Positions 30,098 to 38,525 of a DNA stretch of 43,557 nucleotides are shown here, piece after piece. The DNA comes from Verrucomicrobiota bacterium (GTDB lineage: Bacteria; Verrucomicrobiota; Verrucomicrobiia; Verrucomicrobiales; Verrucomicrobiaceae): positions 1 to 43,557 of the forward strand of contig CAUJJC010000054.1 in NCBI GenBank assembly GCA_963204975.1, given 5' to 3'. The translations under genes and the position numbers were made by a program. How positions within the stretch are numbered: position 1 is the first letter of the stretch; each line of letters begins with the position of its first letter. The notes under the pieces were generated by a model, which had not been told where the DNA came from, made no database searches, and worked only from the letters and a program-made list of their open reading frames with translations.

Positions 30098-31507
30098 ATG
30101 AAATACGGCGCTGCGCTCTTTGCTTTGATCTGGCTTGGTTCATGGGCAGCGGCCGGTGATCCTGTGGCCGCGATTCAGGAGCATCAGGCGAAGCATTCGA
30201 AGGGCGAGGCCTTGTGGTCCTTTGATCCTTCGATTTATGCGGGCGACCTCAAGCGACTCCCGGTGGGTGTTTTTGATTCGGGGATCGGGGGGCTGACGGT
30301 GCTGGATGCGATCCTCAAGCTGGATGCCTTTCACAATGACACGCTTCAACCGGGCGCGGACGGGGTGAGAGACTTCGCGGCGGAGCGGTTCACCTACTTC
30401 GGTGATCAGGCCAACATGCCGTATGGCAATTACCCGGCGGCGGGTCGCGAGGATCTTTTGCGCGAGCTGATCCTGCGCGATGCGACCTTCCTGCTTGGGC
30501 AGCGCTATCAATCCAAGCCTGAGGGCGAAGTGGTGGCCGACAAGGCGGGTGTGAAGGTCATCGTGATCGCGTGCAACACGGCGACGGCGTTCGGACTTGA
30601 AGACATTCGGGCCGTGATCGCGAATTGGGGCCTGAGCATCCCTGTGATTGGCGTGGTGGAAGCTGGAGCCCGTGGGGTGATGGAGTTGCTGCCACGCGAG
30701 TCTCGCCCCGATGCCATCGCAGTGCTCGCGACGGTGGGCACCTGCGGGTGCGAGGCCTACCCCAAGGCGATTTCTCAGGCCACAGGTCTGGCGGGCAAGC
30801 CGATGCCCGTCATCATCCAGCAGGGAAGCGTGGGCCTGGCGGGTGCCATTGAGGGCGATCCGGCTTTTGTTTCCACCACACCTGAACGACAGGCACCTTA
30901 TCAAGGTCCCTCGCCGGACCCGGCTTTGATGCCGGTGTATCAGTTCGATCCCGCTGGCATAATCGGCCATCAACTGAACAGCGTGGCCAATCACGTTCGC
31001 TACGAAGTGACGACCCTCGTCGAGCGCCACCGGAAGAGCGGGGACGACACACCGATCGGGATGGTGGTGCTCGGATGCACACACTATCCCATGGCGCAGC
31101 GCGAGATTGCGGCGGCGTTCGAGGCGCTGAGAGTTTATCGTGCTGCGGATGGCTCCCGGCCCTACGAGGCGCTGATTCGGGAGAAGCTCCAGTTCATCAA
31201 CCCGGCTGAATTCACGGCCAAGGAACTGTTCCGGGAGCTTGCCAGATCGAGGGTCCGTTTGAAGGCGGGGGAAAGCTGTGCGCAGGCGGCGGATCGATTC
31301 TTCCTGAGTGTGCCGAATCCCGGGTGGTCGGGTGCTAAGCTCACGCCAGCCGGGGCTTTGGACCCCGCTTACAAGCACGGTCGGGCACTGGCGGAGTTTG
31401 ATCGCATGGATGCGGTGCCGGTGCCGCTGACCGTCGATCTGCTGCCGAAAACGACGGCGTCGGCCCTGGAACGCCTGATGCCCGAGGTTTGGCGGCGAGT
31501 CCGGTAA
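30098..31507 (+). CDS. Exported glutamate/aspartate racemase homologue
   Basis: A 469-aa protein with an N-terminal signal peptide (LFALIWLGSWAAAG). The mature part matches MurI-type racemases: VGVFDSGIGGLTVL (Asp60, Ser61), FTYFGDQANMPYG, IACNTATAFGL (Cys159) and VVLGCTHYPMAQ (Cys327). The two cysteines are the acid/base pair that interconverts L- and D-glutamate in cytosolic MurI. Normal MurI is about 265 aa. The extra length comes from an N-terminal extension, an insertion before the first Cys (PEGEVVADKAGVKVIV region), a long insertion in the middle (about 253-300) and an extended tail. A canonical murI would be cytoplasmic, so this may recycle or produce D-amino acids in the periplasm, or have another substrate. 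Confidence 0.83.
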   Translation: MKYGAALFALIWLGSWAAAGDPVAAIQEHQAKHSKGEALWSFDPSIYAGDLKRLPVGVFDSGIGGLTVLDAILKLDAFHNDTLQPGADGVRDFAAERFTYFGDQANMPYGNYPAAGREDLLRELILRDATFLLGQRYQSKPEGEVVADKAGVKVIVIACNTATAFGLEDIRAVIANWGLSIPVIGVVEAGARGVMELLPRESRPDAIAVLATVGTCGCEAYPKAISQATGLAGKPMPVIIQQGSVGLAGAIEGDPAFVSTTPERQAPYQGPSPDPALMPVYQFDPAGIIGHQLNSVANHVRYEVTTLVERHRKSGDDTPIGMVVLGCTHYPMAQREIAAAFEALRVYRAADGSRPYEALIREKLQFINPAEFTAKELFRELARSRVRLKAGESCAQAADRFFLSVPNPGWSGAKLTPAGALDPAYKHGRALAEFDRMDAVPVPLTVDLLPKTTASALERLMPEVWRRVR

Positions 31508-31606: not shown

Positions 31607-31648
31607 TTGAAATCAAACTCGTAGATGCTGTATATTAACAATCGTTAA
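31607..31648 (+). promoter_or_regulatory. Sigma-70-type promoter with palindrome, ahead of the haloperoxidase operon
   Basis: TTGAAA at 31607-31612 and TATATT at 31631-31636 are 18 bases apart in a strongly A+T-rich stretch, an unusual composition in this G+C-rich window. TTAAC-aatc-GTTAA (31635-31648) overlaps the -10 end and the probable transcription start, and AAAATT-ata-AATTTT lies just upstream (about 31589-31603). The first gene of the operon starts at 31674, 38 bases downstream of the -10. Confidence 0.65.
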
Positions 31649-31673: not shown

Positions 31674-32642
31674 ATGAACGCGTTCACTTTCGCAATCTCC
31701 CGGCTCCGCTTCGCCAGTCTGGCCTGCGTTGCCTTCTTCTCGATGGCCTCGCTGTCGGAAGCCGCCACATCAGGGATCGTTGGCTTCTACCAAGTGCCTA
31801 TCCCTGTGGGCAACTCGGCATGGGTGTGCGGCTTGGTGGCCAAGGAGCTTTACCATGCGGCCTCTGTGACAGTGACCGCCGATGTGGATGGCAAGGCGCT
31901 GGTTGCCTTCGATGCGCCGGGCTGGACGGGCGGGGAGTTCACTCTCCACTATGCCGAGCCTGCCTCGGGATCATGCGCGGGGCTCGCCATCGACATTCTA
32001 TCGAACACTGCAACGACTCTGAAGCTCGATACCACGCCTGCGGCAGCGGGACTCTCCAACGGCATGGTCTTCACCGTCCGCAAGCACAACACCATCGCTG
32101 GTCTGTTTCCCGATGGAGGCGGATTCCTGCCTCTCACGGACAGCGTGAGTCTTTTTTCCAGCACCGGAGCGCAGCAGAATTACTTCTACAACAGCTTCAA
32201 CTCGACGTGGATCACCGCGCTGGGTGCCAACGCTAACAACGTCATCATTCGCCCCGGCCAAGGCATGGTGATTCAGGCCACAAACCCGATTACGCTGACG
32301 TTGGGCAAAGGTGAAGTGTGCCACGTCAAGACCACGCCCACCAAGATCAAAGCCAATGCCACGGTGCCCAATTTCATCGGGCCGCTCAATCCGCTGGGCA
32401 CCACCACCACGTTGAGCGCCCTGGGTATCACGAGCAGCCTGCTGCCATTGAATGACTCCATCGTGGTGCTCGCGCCGGGTGCCTTCAACCAGACCGGCAC
32501 CTACCTCAGCACTGGTGCCAATCTCATCAATGGTCTGGGCCAGAACGCCAACAACGTTAGCCTGCCCGCAGGTGCGAGTGTGGTGATCAATGTGGACACC
32601 GCCAAAAACATGGCGCTCTCGCCCATCACGGTCAGTCCCTAG
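31674..32642 (+). CDS. Secreted TIGR02597-like protein
   Basis: A 322-aa protein with a signal peptide (residues 1-30, ending SEAA). The chain reads as beta-rich pairs (GIVGFYQVPIPVGNSAWVCGLV; VRKHNTIAGLFPDGGGFLPLTDSVSLFSS; LNDSIVVLAPGAFNQTGTYLSTGANLINGLGQ; LPAGASVVINVDTAKNM). This is the pattern I associate with the TIGR02597 family of Verrucomicrobiota exported proteins, usually found beside PEP-CTERM genes. I could not run an HMM search. It is the first gene of a four-gene run (gaps 24, 20 and 76 bases), so likely co-transcribed from the promoter at 31607-31648. Confidence 0.75.
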   Translation: MNAFTFAISRLRFASLACVAFFSMASLSEAATSGIVGFYQVPIPVGNSAWVCGLVAKELYHAASVTVTADVDGKALVAFDAPGWTGGEFTLHYAEPASGSCAGLAIDILSNTATTLKLDTTPAAAGLSNGMVFTVRKHNTIAGLFPDGGGFLPLTDSVSLFSSTGAQQNYFYNSFNSTWITALGANANNVIIRPGQGMVIQATNPITLTLGKGEVCHVKTTPTKIKANATVPNFIGPLNPLGTTTTLSALGITSSLLPLNDSIVVLAPGAFNQTGTYLSTGANLINGLGQNANNVSLPAGASVVINVDTAKNMALSPITVSP

Positions 32643-32666
32643 TTTCAGCCTCCACTTCCCACGATC

Positions 32667-33608
32667 ATGAAAGGCTTTTCTCATCTCCTCTGCCTCGCCT
32701 CGCTCGCTGTCACAGTGGCACATGCGGGGACTGTCACCCTCACGAGTTCCGGCGGACGGCAGTTCACAGACTCCAAAGGCAAAGCATTGCCTGCGGGCTG
32801 CACCATCCGTGTGGGCACCTTCACTCTGCCCGAAGCCACACGCGATCAAACGCTGAGCACCACCACGGACCTCAACCAGCTCAAGGCTTGGTTTAAACCC
32901 CTGGCTGAAGGCATTACAGGCGCGGGCAGTGCTGTGCAGGCGGCGGGCGCGGGCACGATGCTGCGCACGAATGATTTCCCCACCTCAGGTGAGGTCTTTG
33001 GCACCGTGAGCGAGATCAACAGTGCTTACATGCCGACGGGCACCAAGCTCTACGTGTGGGTCTTCGATGCCGCTGATATTCAGCAGGCAACGCAGACCGG
33101 TATCTTCACCGCAAGCACCTGGACGGCACCTCCTGCACTTGGTGCCACGGCGATCTCGACCGGGGCCACCGTTCAAGCTTTGCAAGGCGAGACCATGGTC
33201 AATGCACTTCGCCTGGCACCCGTCGCCGCGAGCTATGGCAACTGGTCGTGGAAGAAGTTTGGCCCCGGTGCCTCAGGCGCTGGCGTGGGCTTCTCTGCTG
33301 ACACCGATGGCGATGGTTTGCAGAATCTGGCCGAGTATGCCTGGGGCCTCAATCCTTCCAGCCGGGACGCATCGCCTGCCTCCTTGGCGGGCACTGCCAA
33401 TGGCACAGGTGCCACCTTCACCTTCAAGAATCCGCGTGCGCTGCCGGATGTAGAAGTCATCGCGGAATGCTCGTCAGACCTGAAAACCTGGAGCCTCGCA
33501 GCCAGCACGGTGATTGCCACCGAAGGGGACTATGAGACCCGTCGCTGTGTCGCACCCGCAGACGCCCGCTGCTTCTTCCGGGTCCGCTTTCAATCCATCA
33601 CTCCCTAA
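32667..33608 (+). CDS. Secreted protein with calcium-type DxDxDG motif
   Basis: A 313-aa exported protein (signal peptide ending AHAG). The N-terminal about 190 residues are paralogous to the protein encoded next. Shared features are GxxIRVGTF, LKAWFKPLAE, GEVFGTVSEINSAYMPTGTKLYVWVFD and the TGIFTASTW segment. It then has DTDGDGLQNLAEYAWGLNP, a Ca2+-binding thrombospondin-type-3/EF-like motif common on PVC exported proteins. A beta-sandwich-like end follows (AECSSDLKTWSLAAS...CFFRVRF), also found at the end of the haloperoxidase protein. No PEP-CTERM tail is present. Function is unknown. Confidence 0.8.
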   Translation: MKGFSHLLCLASLAVTVAHAGTVTLTSSGGRQFTDSKGKALPAGCTIRVGTFTLPEATRDQTLSTTTDLNQLKAWFKPLAEGITGAGSAVQAAGAGTMLRTNDFPTSGEVFGTVSEINSAYMPTGTKLYVWVFDAADIQQATQTGIFTASTWTAPPALGATAISTGATVQALQGETMVNALRLAPVAASYGNWSWKKFGPGASGAGVGFSADTDGDGLQNLAEYAWGLNPSSRDASPASLAGTANGTGATFTFKNPRALPDVEVIAECSSDLKTWSLAASTVIATEGDYETRRCVAPADARCFFRVRFQSITP

Positions 33609-33628
33609 ACCTCAGCTCTCAAAAAACT

Positions 33629-34279
33629 ATGAACTCCCGCCTCTTTGTCCAAGCTCTCGTGGCACTCTGCCTCACGGCGTCGGCTGCGTTTGGAGCGACT
33701 GTCTCCATTACGGTCAGCAGCAATTTTGGCCCCTGCTATACCACCAGCACGGATCAATTGCTGACCGCAGGGTCCATCGTTCGCGTGGGATACTTCAACT
33801 GGAACGATTCCGGTGTGAGGAGCATCCTTTCCACGAGCAACGATTTCGCCACGCTTGACGCATTGTTCACGCCACTGGCCGAGTCCAAGCCCAATTCGGG
33901 CACGGTGCTGCAAACGGCTGCTCCAGGGCAGAACATGGTGATCAATGATCAGTTCGAGGCGGGGCATATTTTTGGTCAGATTGAGAATATCGAATCGACC
34001 TACCTGCCGACGACGACGGACCTAGTTCTGTGGGTGTTCAATTCCTCCACCGCTTCCGCAGCCACAGAGTGGGGCATCTTCACGACCTCGACGGGCTGGG
34101 AGTTTCCCGCAGCCAATGGATCACAGACGCTTGCGAGCATTGAGGTGGAGGAGTCCAACATCATCCGTGGCAGCTTCAATAGCGTGGACCAGCATCTCCG
34201 TCTTGCCGTCGTGCCTGAGCCCAGCGGCATCCTCCTTTTGCTGAGCTGCGCATTGGCCGTCCGTCGCCGTCGTCGCTGA
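33629..34279 (+). CDS. PEP-CTERM exported protein, paralogue of the preceding gene
   Basis: A 216-aa protein with an N-terminal signal peptide (VALCLTASAAFGA). The C-terminus VVPEPSGILLLLSCALAVRRRRR contains the PEP motif, a hydrophobic helix and a basic end, i.e. a PEP-CTERM sorting signal that an exosortase would recognise. The core matches the preceding protein: AGSIVRVGYFNWN, LDALFTPLAE, GHIFGQIENIESTYLPTTTDLVLWVFN and WGIFTTSTGW. So the two genes share a domain but have different C-terminal modules. No exosortase gene is present in the window. Confidence 0.88.
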   Translation: MNSRLFVQALVALCLTASAAFGATVSITVSSNFGPCYTTSTDQLLTAGSIVRVGYFNWNDSGVRSILSTSNDFATLDALFTPLAESKPNSGTVLQTAAPGQNMVINDQFEAGHIFGQIENIESTYLPTTTDLVLWVFNSSTASAATEWGIFTTSTGWEFPAANGSQTLASIEVEESNIIRGSFNSVDQHLRLAVVPEPSGILLLLSCALAVRRRRR

Positions 34280-34355
34280 TCTGCTTCCGTTTGTTTTTCC
34301 CCCGGCTGTTCTCGCCAGCCGCCTGGCCCGTCATCATCTCACCACTACTACGCCC

Positions 34356-37300
34356 ATGAGTTCTCTTCATGCCCGCCGCATTCTTCATTTGATCCTGCCT
34401 GCGATCCTTTGTGCAGGGGCAGCAATGGGCCAGTCTGCGGCTCGTGTGTGGAATGAGCAGTTGCTGGCGGCCATTCGGCGCAATGTGCCGAATCCACCGG
34501 CTCATGCGCGCAATCTCCATCACACGGCCGTGGCCATGTTTGATGCCTGGGCGGCCTACGATGCGACAGCCGTTGGCTACCTTTACAATGAAAAGGTTTC
34601 GCCCTTGCCGCCTGACATCGAAGCGTCCCGCCATGAAGCAATCAGCTATGCCGCCTATCGTGTTCTGCGTGCTCGATTTGCCACTGGGGCAGGTTCCGCG
34701 ACATCGCTCGCCAGCTTTGACGCTCAACTCACCACGCTTGGATACTCGACCAGCATTGCGCAGTCCCCGATCACCAATGGCACGACACCTGCCGAGGTAG
34801 GGAAACGTATGGCTCAGGCAGTGTTGAACTGGGGGGCAACCGATGGCTTCAGCAATACCTCATATCCCCAGGCTTACACCTCGGCGATCAATCCCAATCT
34901 GAACGTTCCAATGCCCGTGCTGGGGCAGAACACTGTGTTTCAATCCAATATGCCAGTGGGTTATGGCGTGCCTGCGGGCACGGACCCGAACCTCTGGCAG
35001 CCCCTGGACCTCTCGACCAGCGTCACGCAGAATGGGATTCCGATTCCTGGTGGTGCGCAGACTTTCGTGGGTGTGCAATCTCTGGCCACGGTGCCCTTCA
35101 GTCTTACTCGAACGGACCCAACGAAACCCTGGCTCGACCCGTATGGTGGCCCTTCCAAGATGAGTTACAACGGCGTCATCAGCCCCTCAGATGCCGCTTT
35201 CAAAGACAACTTCATGGACGTGGTGCGCAAGACAGCACAACTCAACGACGAGACACTGATCGACATCTCGCCTGGTGCCATGGGGGACAATCCTCTGGGT
35301 GCCGACACAGGAGACGGACGTGAATTAAACCCGGTGACTGGGCTGCCCTACACGGCCAACAACGTGAAGAAGGGGGACTACTATCGAGTGCTCGCCGAGT
35401 TCTGGGCGGATGGCCCGAATTCTGAAACTCCTCCCGGCCACTGGCATGTGCTGGCCAATCAGGTGGCTGATGATCCCGCTCTGGTGAAAAAGATCGGTGG
35501 AGTCGGTCCAGTGGTGAATGATTTGGAGTGGGATGTAAAAACCTACATGGCCCTTGCGGGTGGTGTGCATGATGCTGCCTGCGCCGCGTGGGCTCTGAAA
35601 CGCTACTACTCGGGCGTGCGTCCCATCACTGCCATTCGCTACATGTGCAGTATGGGGCAGTGCACAGATGATGGGCTTGATCCCGGAGACGATCCTGCTC
35701 TCCAGGCATCCTACGATCCCGAAGGTATTCCGTTGGAACCAGGGCTCGTGGAGGTCATCACAGCGTCCAGTTCGTCCGTGGGTGAGAGACACCACAAGAT
35801 CTGGAGCCTTGCCATTAACGGCGAAGACTTCGGCTCCAACCATGTGGGCGAGATTGTTGTCATGGGCTGGCCAGGCGAGCACCAAGCCAATCCGCCTGCT
35901 CCAGCCATCGCCACCAATCAGAGTCCTGTGCGGTGGATGTTGGGTAAGGACTGGCTGCCCTTCCAGCGCAAGACATTCAACACGCCCGCTTTCCCAGGCT
36001 ACGTCTCCGGGCACTCCACCTTCTCTCGTTCGGCGGCTGAAGTGCTGACGCTCATCACTGGATCTGCGAACTTCCCCGGCGGATTTCATGACCACACGGT
36101 GGCGGCCAATTCACTCCAGATCGATCTCGGCCCCAGCGCTCCCGTCGATCTGCAATGGACCACCTACTATGATGCGGCCGACCAAGCAGGGCAGTCCCGT
36201 CGATACGGCGGCATTCATCCTTATGAGGATGATTATCATGGTCGTGTGATCGGCTCCCAGGCGGGCATATCGGCCTACACCAAGGCGGTGAAGTATTGGA
36301 GCGGCTCCATCCTGAGCGAGGCCATCATTCCCACCGTGGCTTATCAAGCCGACGGCAGCGCGCTCATCACTTGGACCGCCACGCAGGGCAAGATGAACAA
36401 GATTCAGACGTCCACTGACTTCTCCTCATGGTCCGATGTGCATACCGGCTACGCTCGCACAACGAGCGGCAGCTATATTGTCAAGGACCCGGTCGCGGGG
36501 GCGACTTATCAAATCGTGGTCAGCGATCCTACACCAGCACGCATCTGGAACGAGCAACTGCTGGAAGCCATTCGCATGGACAAGCCGCATCCGCCTGCAC
36601 ACGCGCGCAATCTCTTCCACATTGCCACGGCGATGTATGACGCCTGGGCAGCCTACGACACCACAGCCATTGGTTACATCCATCACGAGCGCGCGACCGC
36701 TGGAGACATTGCCGCAGCCCGCAAGGAAGCTATCAGCTATGCGGCCTATCGAATGATGCGGAATCGCTTCGCTAGCTCGGTGAACGTGACGGCCATCTAC
36801 AACAGCATCAACGCCCAGATGCAGGAGCTTGGCTACAACACCAATACGACCACCACGGTGGGCACTACACCCGCTGCGCTTGGCAATCGAATTGCGGCCA
36901 AGATCATTGCCTGGGGGCTGGCGGATGGATCCAATCAACAGGGTGGTTTCAACGACACCTCTTACACCAATCCTCAGCCTGCGATGGTCGTCCTCCAGGG
37001 TGGCATCCCTCGTGGTTATGGCATTCCTGCGGGCACCGATCCCAATCTGTGGCAGCCACTGGCATTTGATGCCGCCTTCACGCAAAATGGTCTCCAGGCT
37101 GATCTCGTGCAGAAGTATGTCGGCGTCACCTGGCTGAATACGATTCCCTTCGCGCACACGCGCTCCGCTCCGAATGTGCCATGGATTGATCCCGGTCCTC
37201 CGTCCATGATCTACACGGCGGGTGGCACGCCTTCGCCTGCGGAAGCCGCGTCGGACCTCGAATACAAACAGGGCTGCCTCTACGTGCTCCAGGCCAGCGC

Positions 37301-38525
37301 CCGGTTGAATGATGAGACGGTCATCGACATGTCTCCTGCTACCTTCGGAGACAATACGCTGGGAGCTGACGATGGCGATGGCTATACGGTCAATCCATAC
37401 ACCGGACAACCTTATGCACCCAACCCGGTGAAGTTCGGGAACTACGCTCGAGTGATGGCCGAATTCTGGGCCGATGGTCCACAATCCGAAACACCTCCTG
37501 GCCACTGGCATGTGCTGGCCAATGAAGTCGCTGACAGCCCGCTCCATGTGAAGCGCATCGGCGGTGTGGGGCCGATTGTGGATGATCTCGAATGGGATGT
37601 GAAGACCTACTTCTCCCTCGCCGCCGCGACTCACGATGCTGCCTGCGCCGTGTGGGGAGTGAAGCGCTTCTATCAAGGCGTGCGCCCAATCACCGCGATT
37701 CGCTACATGGCGAGTAAGGGTCAATCCTCTGATCCAGGCCAGCTATCGTATCATCCTCAGGGGTTGATCTTGGAGCCCGGCGTGTGTGAAGTGGTCACGG
37801 GTGATACCGTCAATGGGCGTCATGCCGCAGCAGGTGCCAATGTTGGTGACATCGTGGTCTATTCATGGCCCGGTGAGCCGAACAATCCGTCCAGCGAAAC
37901 CAGTCCTGTGCGCTGGATGCGCGCGATCGACTGGCTGCCCTACCAGCGTGAAACCTTCAATACACCTGCCTTCCCTGGCTACATCTCCGGGCACAGCGGC
38001 TTCTCCCGTGCGGCTGCTGAGATCATGACGGCGATCACGGCCAATCCTTACTTCCCAGGCGGGCTCGGAACCTTCACCGCTCAGGCGAATAATTATCTCT
38101 TGTTCGAGATGGGGCCTTCTGAGACCACCACGCTCGAATGGGCGACCTACTACGATGCGGCGGACCTCGCTGGTAATTCACGCCGCTGGGGTGGCATCCA
38201 TGTTCGCGAGGATGATTACAAGTCACGCATCATCGGCGCTCAATCGGGCAAGCAGGTTTGGGAACTCGCGCAGAAGTATTTCAATGGCGAGATCATGGCT
38301 GAAGAAGTGGTGCCCGAGCAAGCCTATCAGCCAAACGGCACCGTGGTGCTCACCAGCCCGGCGCGTCGCGGTCTTTACTACCTGTGGGAATACAGCACGG
38401 ACCTCCAGAACTGGACCGCCCTGACTGCCAATGCCCAGAGCAGCGATACCTCGATCACTTACACGGACACTCCGCCTGCGGGCCAGCCGCGTTTCTATCG
38501 TGCTCGCTGGAGCGCCACGCCTTAA
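34356..38525 (+). CDS. Tandem double vanadium-dependent haloperoxidase-like protein
   Basis: A 1389-aa protein with a signal peptide (residues 1-25, AAMGQ). It consists of two copies of a PAP2/vanadium-chloroperoxidase-like domain (about 26-720 and 728-1389), each opening with ARVWNEQLL/ARIWNEQLL. Copy 1 has K415-x6-R422 (KRYYSGVRP), S551-G-H553 (GYVSGHS) and R615-x5-H621 (RRYGGIH). Copy 2 has K1103/R1110 (KRFYQGVRP), S1211-G-H1213 and R1276/H1282. This set and spacing (7 and 6) match the vanadate-binding residues of vanadium chloroperoxidase. Each copy is followed by a beta-sandwich-like segment (TSTDFSSWSD, YSTDLQNWTAL). Haloperoxidases oxidise halides with H2O2; related PAP2 proteins are phosphatases, so activity needs testing. 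The protein is last in a four-gene operon. Confidence 0.88.
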   Translation: MSSLHARRILHLILPAILCAGAAMGQSAARVWNEQLLAAIRRNVPNPPAHARNLHHTAVAMFDAWAAYDATAVGYLYNEKVSPLPPDIEASRHEAISYAAYRVLRARFATGAGSATSLASFDAQLTTLGYSTSIAQSPITNGTTPAEVGKRMAQAVLNWGATDGFSNTSYPQAYTSAINPNLNVPMPVLGQNTVFQSNMPVGYGVPAGTDPNLWQPLDLSTSVTQNGIPIPGGAQTFVGVQSLATVPFSLTRTDPTKPWLDPYGGPSKMSYNGVISPSDAAFKDNFMDVVRKTAQLNDETLIDISPGAMGDNPLGADTGDGRELNPVTGLPYTANNVKKGDYYRVLAEFWADGPNSETPPGHWHVLANQVADDPALVKKIGGVGPVVNDLEWDVKTYMALAGGVHDAACAAWALKRYYSGVRPITAIRYMCSMGQCTDDGLDPGDDPALQASYDPEGIPLEPGLVEVITASSSSVGERHHKIWSLAINGEDFGSNHVGEIVVMGWPGEHQANPPAPAIATNQSPVRWMLGKDWLPFQRKTFNTPAFPGYVSGHSTFSRSAAEVLTLITGSANFPGGFHDHTVAANSLQIDLGPSAPVDLQWTTYYDAADQAGQSRRYGGIHPYEDDYHGRVIGSQAGISAYTKAVKYWSGSILSEAIIPTVAYQADGSALITWTATQGKMNKIQTSTDFSSWSDVHTGYARTTSGSYIVKDPVAGATYQIVVSDPTPARIWNEQLLEAIRMDKPHPPAHARNLFHIATAMYDAWAAYDTTAIGYIHHERATAGDIAAARKEAISYAAYRMMRNRFASSVNVTAIYNSINAQMQELGYNTNTTTTVGTTPAALGNRIAAKIIAWGLADGSNQQGGFNDTSYTNPQPAMVVLQGGIPRGYGIPAGTDPNLWQPLAFDAAFTQNGLQADLVQKYVGVTWLNTIPFAHTRSAPNVPWIDPGPPSMIYTAGGTPSPAEAASDLEYKQGCLYVLQASARLNDETVIDMSPATFGDNTLGADDGDGYTVNPYTGQPYAPNPVKFGNYARVMAEFWADGPQSETPPGHWHVLANEVADSPLHVKRIGGVGPIVDDLEWDVKTYFSLAAATHDAACAVWGVKRFYQGVRPITAIRYMASKGQSSDPGQLSYHPQGLILEPGVCEVVTGDTVNGRHAAAGANVGDIVVYSWPGEPNNPSSETSPVRWMRAIDWLPYQRETFNTPAFPGYISGHSGFSRAAAEIMTAITANPYFPGGLGTFTAQANNYLLFEMGPSETTTLEWATYYDAADLAGNSRRWGGIHVREDDYKSRIIGAQSGKQVWELAQKYFNGEIMAEEVVPEQAYQPNGTVVLTSPARRGLYYLWEYSTDLQNWTALTANAQSSDTSITYTDTPPAGQPRFYRARWSATP

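Follow-up and report, generated by a model that had tools for sequence, protein, structure and literature searches.

The solved structures nearest in fold to the enzyme described here are those of the vanadium-dependent haloperoxidases (VHPOs) NapH1, XhnO11 and NapH3 (PDB 3w35, 9l8x, 8cxl). In this class of proteins, chloroperoxidases with regio- or stereo-selectivity are recognised by a catalytic Lys and Ser (K324 and S427 of NapH1) (PMC12871659). The hypohalous acid made by macroalgal and cyanobacterial VHPOs generally leaves the enzyme and diffuses freely, and the Streptomyces enzymes are site-specific (PMC8407465). In several VHPOs the substrate tunnels lie where subunits meet; NapH1 was shown as a dimer and the Curvularia enzyme is active as a monomer (PMC11871015). 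Similar in active-site motifs is the vanadium iodoperoxidase (VIPO) of Zobellia (PDB 4cit/4usz), and the vanadium chloroperoxidase (VCPO) of Curvularia inaequalis (PDB 1vni) provides a further reference. Within the wider planctomycete-verrucomicrobial group, the VHPO of Rhodopirellula baltica (Q7UVW2), to which the present enzyme is likened by description, was assayed for halogenation and prefers bromide (PMC12871659). The genes that accompany our enzyme are compared below to the PEP-CTERM/exosortase surface proteins and to the TIGR02597 family. A literature search, with most subscription journals outside its scope, found no paper joining a haloperoxidase with PEP-CTERM, naming TIGR02597 or assigning a role to the Verrucomicrobiota relatives of VHPOs, and the papers on tandem or fused VHPOs, judged by title and abstract, pointed to no two-domain enzyme. 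This agrees with a first-pass annotation of this DNA, in which the haloperoxidase/PEP-CTERM combination was put forward as not known to be described.

The locus lies on the forward strand of a window of 43,557 nucleotides, by which we mean the whole stretch of DNA, from a Verrucomicrobiaceae bacterium, that was analysed. It consists of four open reading frames at 31674-32642 (g1), 32667-33608 (g2), 33629-34279 (g3) and 34356-38525 (the VHPO gene), separated by gaps of 24, 20 and 76 bases. All four predicted N-termini display a 12-residue hydrophobic core (mean KD 2.1-2.5) followed by A-x-A-type sites, as detected with a heuristic, and are read as signal peptides. A distinct A+T-rich stretch (72-78% A+T per 40 bases) precedes g1 and contains a promoter-like site, TTGAAA-18-TATATT (31607..31636, forward strand), which scored 10/12 in a consensus scan and is the best sigma-70-like site of the region. 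Gene positions, gaps, signal peptides and A+T-rich upstream stretch all agree with the first-pass annotation. A+T richness of the last ~100 bases upstream of g1 is found in 11 of the 11 cassettes identified below. The four genes would form one transcription unit whose products are predicted to be extracellular. No peroxide-producing gene is present in the four-gene unit. Among the minor features of the upstream region, an inverted repeat, TTAACAATCGTTAA, at 31635-31648 overlaps the -10 site, extends past it and is kept in the same-genus genome only, and an AATTAT-like candidate box is situated about 60-90 bases upstream of the g1 start in most cassette loci (L111-L121). The region 30098-31507, directly upstream and outside the unit, encodes an Asp/Glu racemase family protein with a signal-peptide-like start.

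The first three genes encode predicted secreted proteins. The all-beta product of g1 had been called TIGR02597-like; the resemblance holds at 31.2 bits but stays under the curated cut-off of 50 bits, and the same profile is matched at E<=0.01 by 15 of 18 aligned g1 relatives. The structure prediction of g1, made from an alignment of 7 sequences, was unusable (pLDDT 40). The g2 protein combines an N-terminal domain common with g3, a DGDG-type linker and a C-terminal STDLxxW...FxRVR module, as delineated by similarity to g3 and by hhalign. At 37% identity (E 7e-28), sequence comparison indicates that g2 and g3 are paralogues, a point absent from the first-pass annotation. The g3 protein ends in a PEP-CTERM-type sorting tail (VPEPSG-hydrophobic-RRRRR; 34211..34276, forward strand), which scores 15.6 bits with TIGR02595, 0.4 bit short of the cut-off of 16, and 14.7 bits with PF07589 (cut-off 20.7). 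TIGR02595 is matched at E<=0.01 by 12 of 29 g2/g3 sequences. The window's g3 thus differs from curated PEP-CTERM proteins by a tail under the cut-off and resembles them by the tail itself and by its genome, which encodes two exosortases (E 4e-44 and 9e-37) and at least 12 PEP-CTERM tails. The secreted and PEP-CTERM-type partners that had been proposed for the operon are supported. The VHPO is devoid of a PEP-CTERM tail and may therefore be simply secreted.

The last gene (34356..38525, forward strand) encodes a predicted secreted protein of 1389 amino acids in which a signal peptide is followed by VHPO domain 1 (34434..36371), a beta-module, VHPO domain 2 (36531..38366) and a second beta-module. 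Domain 1, of A-type, was defined by half-against-half similarity, tree position and profile match, and domain 2, of B-type, by an AlphaFold2 model and its Foldseek matches. The two halves are 52% identical over 678 columns and the Pfam family DUF6851 exceeds its cut-off in both of them. Pfam VCPO_2nd, with a cut-off of 27 bits, scores 45 bits with the full chain, 30.3 with domain 2 and 22.7 with domain 1 alone. Both halves contain W-x2-K-x6-R-P, F-x4-SGH and S-R-x5-H-x3-D. On the forward strand, a motif scan located these motifs in domain 1 as WALKRYYSGVRP (W412, K415, R422; 35589..35624), FPGYVSGH (F546, S551-G552-H553; 35991..36014) and SRRYGGIHPYED (R615, H621, D625; 36195..36230), and in domain 2 as WGVKRFYQGVRP (W1100, K1103, R1110; 37653..37688), FPGYISGH (F1206, S1211-G1212-H1213; 37971..37994) and SRRWGGIHVRED (R1276, H1282, D1286; 38178..38213). 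The K/SGH/R-H trio appeared in order, even as one copy, in only 0.05% of shuffles. The first-shell residues are invariant across 42 aligned sequences and, like the motifs W-x2-K-x6-R-P, F-x4-SGH and R-x5-H-x3-D, were seen in every one of the 106 domain sequences that were checked; both domains of the window have these motifs. The gene does encode the two full VHPO-type domains that had been claimed for it. The VCPO-like spacing claimed for these residues stands within each motif and fails between motifs. In the published numbering of the Curvularia enzyme, 51 residues separate the Lys from the His and 92 separate His from His; here the distance from Lys to the SGH His is 138 residues in domain 1 and 110 in domain 2, and the two His are 68 and 69 residues apart, respectively.

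Structure prediction of the halves, proposed earlier as a check, yielded for the C half (domain 2 with its module) an AlphaFold2 model of pLDDT 93.0 and pTM 0.93 from 42 sequences, in which the two-bundle VHPO fold is found. All 28 PDB matches of domain 2 with E<=0.001 in Foldseek are VHPOs, headed by XhnO11 (E 2.9e-21), NapH1 and NapH3, followed by Zobellia VIPO and Curvularia VCPO (E 2.5e-12); acid phosphatases appear only from E 0.03 upward. Domain 1, at 52% identity to domain 2, would adopt the same two-bundle fold. Clustering of the Lys, Arg, Ser-Gly-His, Arg and His in space is predicted from the fold match and from the alignment to solved VHPOs. The matches to NapH1, XhnO11 and NapH3 (E 1e-18 to 1e-21) have TM-scores of at most 0.80 by target length and identities of 17-19%, and the window enzyme differs from these proteins by its two domains per chain, its beta-modules, the lack of a surrounding biosynthetic cluster and a His at the Ser position of the selective class. 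The position aligned to SGH reads PSGS in XhnO11, PSGF in NapH3 and SGH in Zobellia VIPO.

Both window domains have SGH where the site-selective, NapH1-type enzymes have a Ser at the acid-base position (PMC12871659); because their acid-base residue is His, they fall outside this class by that criterion. The Zobellia enzyme is near-identical in FPxYxSGHS and AADxAxxSRxxGGIH and has the same Trp and Phe neighbours, but is a shorter, single-domain protein whose halide preference is not transferable to the window enzyme. The Curvularia enzyme has all first-shell residues and the W350/F397 equivalents in common with ours, and differs by its inter-motif distances, its one active domain and an identity of 13%. 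A Trp three residues before the catalytic Lys is found in chlorinating enzymes (PMC11871015). Alignment places the same Trp in the Zobellia iodoperoxidase, so this residue does not name the halide; likewise, the W350/F397 equivalents were discarded as proof of chlorination, since that iodoperoxidase has the same pair.

The two VHPO domains are linked by a beta-module of STDLxxW...FYRxR type (36315..36503, forward strand), recognized by a profile match in its own genome and by hhalign to the C-terminal module (38298..38522, forward strand; profile match in its own genome). By hhalign, the linker is a homologue of the C-terminal module (98.8%, E 5.7e-17), and the C-terminal module of g2 (33393-33599) is a homologue of the VHPO module (95.5%, E 1.4e-8). 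The module occurs in 22 places of its own genome at E<=0.01 and in many places in relatives, up to 55 in one of them. It is therefore not specific to the VHPO unit; as far as sequence comparison goes, it seems to be a C-terminal module in general use among secreted proteins of Verrucomicrobiota.

Conservation of the unit was surveyed across the family, in 68 genomes. Of these, 11 yielded strong g3 homologues, with g2 adjoining in each, and g1, g2, g3 and the VHPO gene are contiguous and in the same order in 10. In the eleventh genome (G036), the stretch with g1-g3 and the one with the VHPO both run into a contig edge. This neighbourhood survey had been set beforehand as the test of whether the four genes are conserved together, which they are, in carriers that belong to several genera. 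The genes flanking the unit in the window recur only in the same-genus genome G003, and the flanks of the other cassettes are common only to close pairs, except for one gene of L116 also present in L119 and L120. Since flanks differ outside the window's genus, the unit corresponds exactly to 31674-38525 and is at home in several unrelated places. Regarding plasmid carriage, only distant matches (<=31% identity) were obtained and this possibility was rejected. Three further families of the order have pairs of g1- and g3-like genes without a nearby VHPO (L135-L145, for instance L141 8385-10096), which makes the g1/g3 surface-protein module the wider part; this module is probably older and the VHPO an addition. 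In L135, a TIGR02597-like and g3-like PEP-CTERM pair sits beside a row of about 7 more PEP-CTERM genes.

The two-domain VHPO, described as an operon feature in the first-pass annotation, is present in 7 cassette genomes, whereas the enzyme is single in the other 4 of the 11; a fixed two-domain state is thus ruled out, and two sites are not essential. The doubles are either A+B (G000, G003, G008) or A+A (G002, G036, G039, G040), and the singles are B (G025, G031, G050) or A (G009). In the tree, domain 1 of every double falls in one clade (100/99) nested within A-type, and domain 2 is B-type or located elsewhere in A-type; the B-type second domains group with single-domain cassette enzymes at moderate support (92/93). 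As the halves belong to different clades and the kind of domain 2 varies by genome, the fusion is not a simple tandem duplication. A simple reading of the tree would be that an A-type domain was acquired once in front of a cassette enzyme, position 2 being later exchanged or lost; gene conversion and losses may also have contributed. G025 and G050 contain a linker-like module between the signal peptide and the single B domain, a layout that would fit the deletion of a domain once present in front.

The locus is a real and well-conserved unit, and its unusual two-domain VHPO is built from known enzyme parts. We consider it reasonably probable that the last gene encodes a secreted, hypohalite-releasing VHPO with two predicted sites, expressed together with a PEP-CTERM set of surface proteins. 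In the proposed mechanism, g1, g2 and g3 would constitute a surface or matrix set, with g3 as a PEP-CTERM-type exosortase substrate, g2 as its paralogue with a different C-terminal module and g1 as a TIGR02597-like protein, and the enzyme would be retained at the surface via a PEP-CTERM partner or its beta-modules. Each chain of this predicted vanadium-dependent haloperoxidase would hold two complete sites, in each of which the C-terminal His (H621 or H1282) would bind vanadate, cradled by Lys, two Arg and Ser-Gly. The SGH His would serve as the acid-base residue and H2O2 would oxidise halide to hypohalous acid, so that the predicted activity would probably produce reactive halogen at the cell surface. 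Since a His takes the acid-base position that a Ser occupies in site-selective chloroperoxidases, the product would most likely be set free, or used without selectivity, in the matrix surrounding the cell, where competitors, signals or organic matter could be its targets. Since several VHPOs have their substrate tunnels at subunit interfaces and NapH1 was shown as a dimer, the fusion may represent an internal heterodimer, fixing an arrangement that most VHPOs reach by joining separate chains. A more speculative version, which we hold as doubtful, states that a PEP-CTERM matrix module recruited a haloperoxidase for surface halogenation, in the form of a permanent heterodimer of VHPO domains of different descent, with the partner exchanged between lineages and the halide or substrate range tuned by domain swapping.

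The same pocket could instead bind phosphate, the protein being a secreted phosphatase of the same superfamily that acquires phosphorus at the surface. The catalytic pocket is indeed common to VHPOs and bacterial acid phosphatases, and phosphatase activity was reported for VCPO (PMC4859513). Low vanadate in non-marine habitats would also favour such a function, but the acid phosphatase fold matches far worse than that of VHPOs (E>=0.03 versus 1e-21) and the protein has the full two-bundle VHPO architecture with DUF6851. The PAP2 acid phosphatase signature is KX6RP-X12-54-PSGH-X31-54-SRX5HX3D; its motifs are found in the window enzyme, but at distances exceeding 12-54 and 31-54, and the residue before SGH is Val (domain 1) or Ile (domain 2) instead of Pro. 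A phosphatase is therefore judged unlikely. The presence of NapH3 among the nearest folds could likewise suggest a non-halogenating homologue using the same fold for another reaction, which we regard as very unlikely given that NapH3 has PSGF where both window domains have SGH and that both domains keep all first-shell residues.

A possible reading, though one to which we give limited credence, holds that only one site is catalytic, the other domain acting as a structural or substrate-binding partner. The single clade of domain 1 in all doubles, the variable kind of domain 2 and the existence of single-domain cassettes would fit this view; the catalytic residues are nevertheless intact in both domains of every double, whereas their loss is expected in a dead partner. 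Finally, the VHPO could be independent of g1-g3 and their proximity accidental, as might be suggested by the 76-base gap before the VHPO and by the occurrence in the order of both solitary VHPOs and VHPO-less g1/g3 pairs. All 11 genomes, which span several genera and have unrelated flanks, keep the same gene order (interrupted in one by the end of a contig), which makes such a coincidence highly improbable. A two-site VHPO expressed with the PEP-CTERM set thus stays our preferred reading. Three points are new: the paralogy of g2 and g3, the g1/g3 pair without VHPO in other families and the position of both sites outside the NapH1-type class. The conserved, transferable association of a VHPO with a PEP-CTERM-type set provides a concrete setting in which environmental bacteria could carry out oxidative halogen chemistry in their surface matrix, with a bearing on competition between microbes and on the cycling of organohalogens. 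Enzymes with one and with two domains occur naturally and offer a ready series for gauging the contribution of a second vanadate site.

VHPO relatives are common in the phylum, with 537 confirmed stretches, and most of the best 80 relatives originate from Verrucomicrobiota. Doubles account for 3 of these best 80, all in the four-gene cassette. A 4.9-kb match in L061 resolved into a single-domain gene and a distant fragment. The long VHPO ORFs of another family were rejected as doubles, as they comprise one VHPO domain with FG-GAP-type and Ig-type repeats. These proteins of 1362-1496 amino acids (L148 4224-8714; L149 4049-8506; L150 6005-10093; L151 3774-8087) come from a different family of the class, and in them FG-GAP-type repeats and an Ig-like part precede the VHPO domain. 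In L122 (3198-7340), a solitary A-type VHPO domain is fused to a long Ig-like region in a protein of 1380 amino acids.
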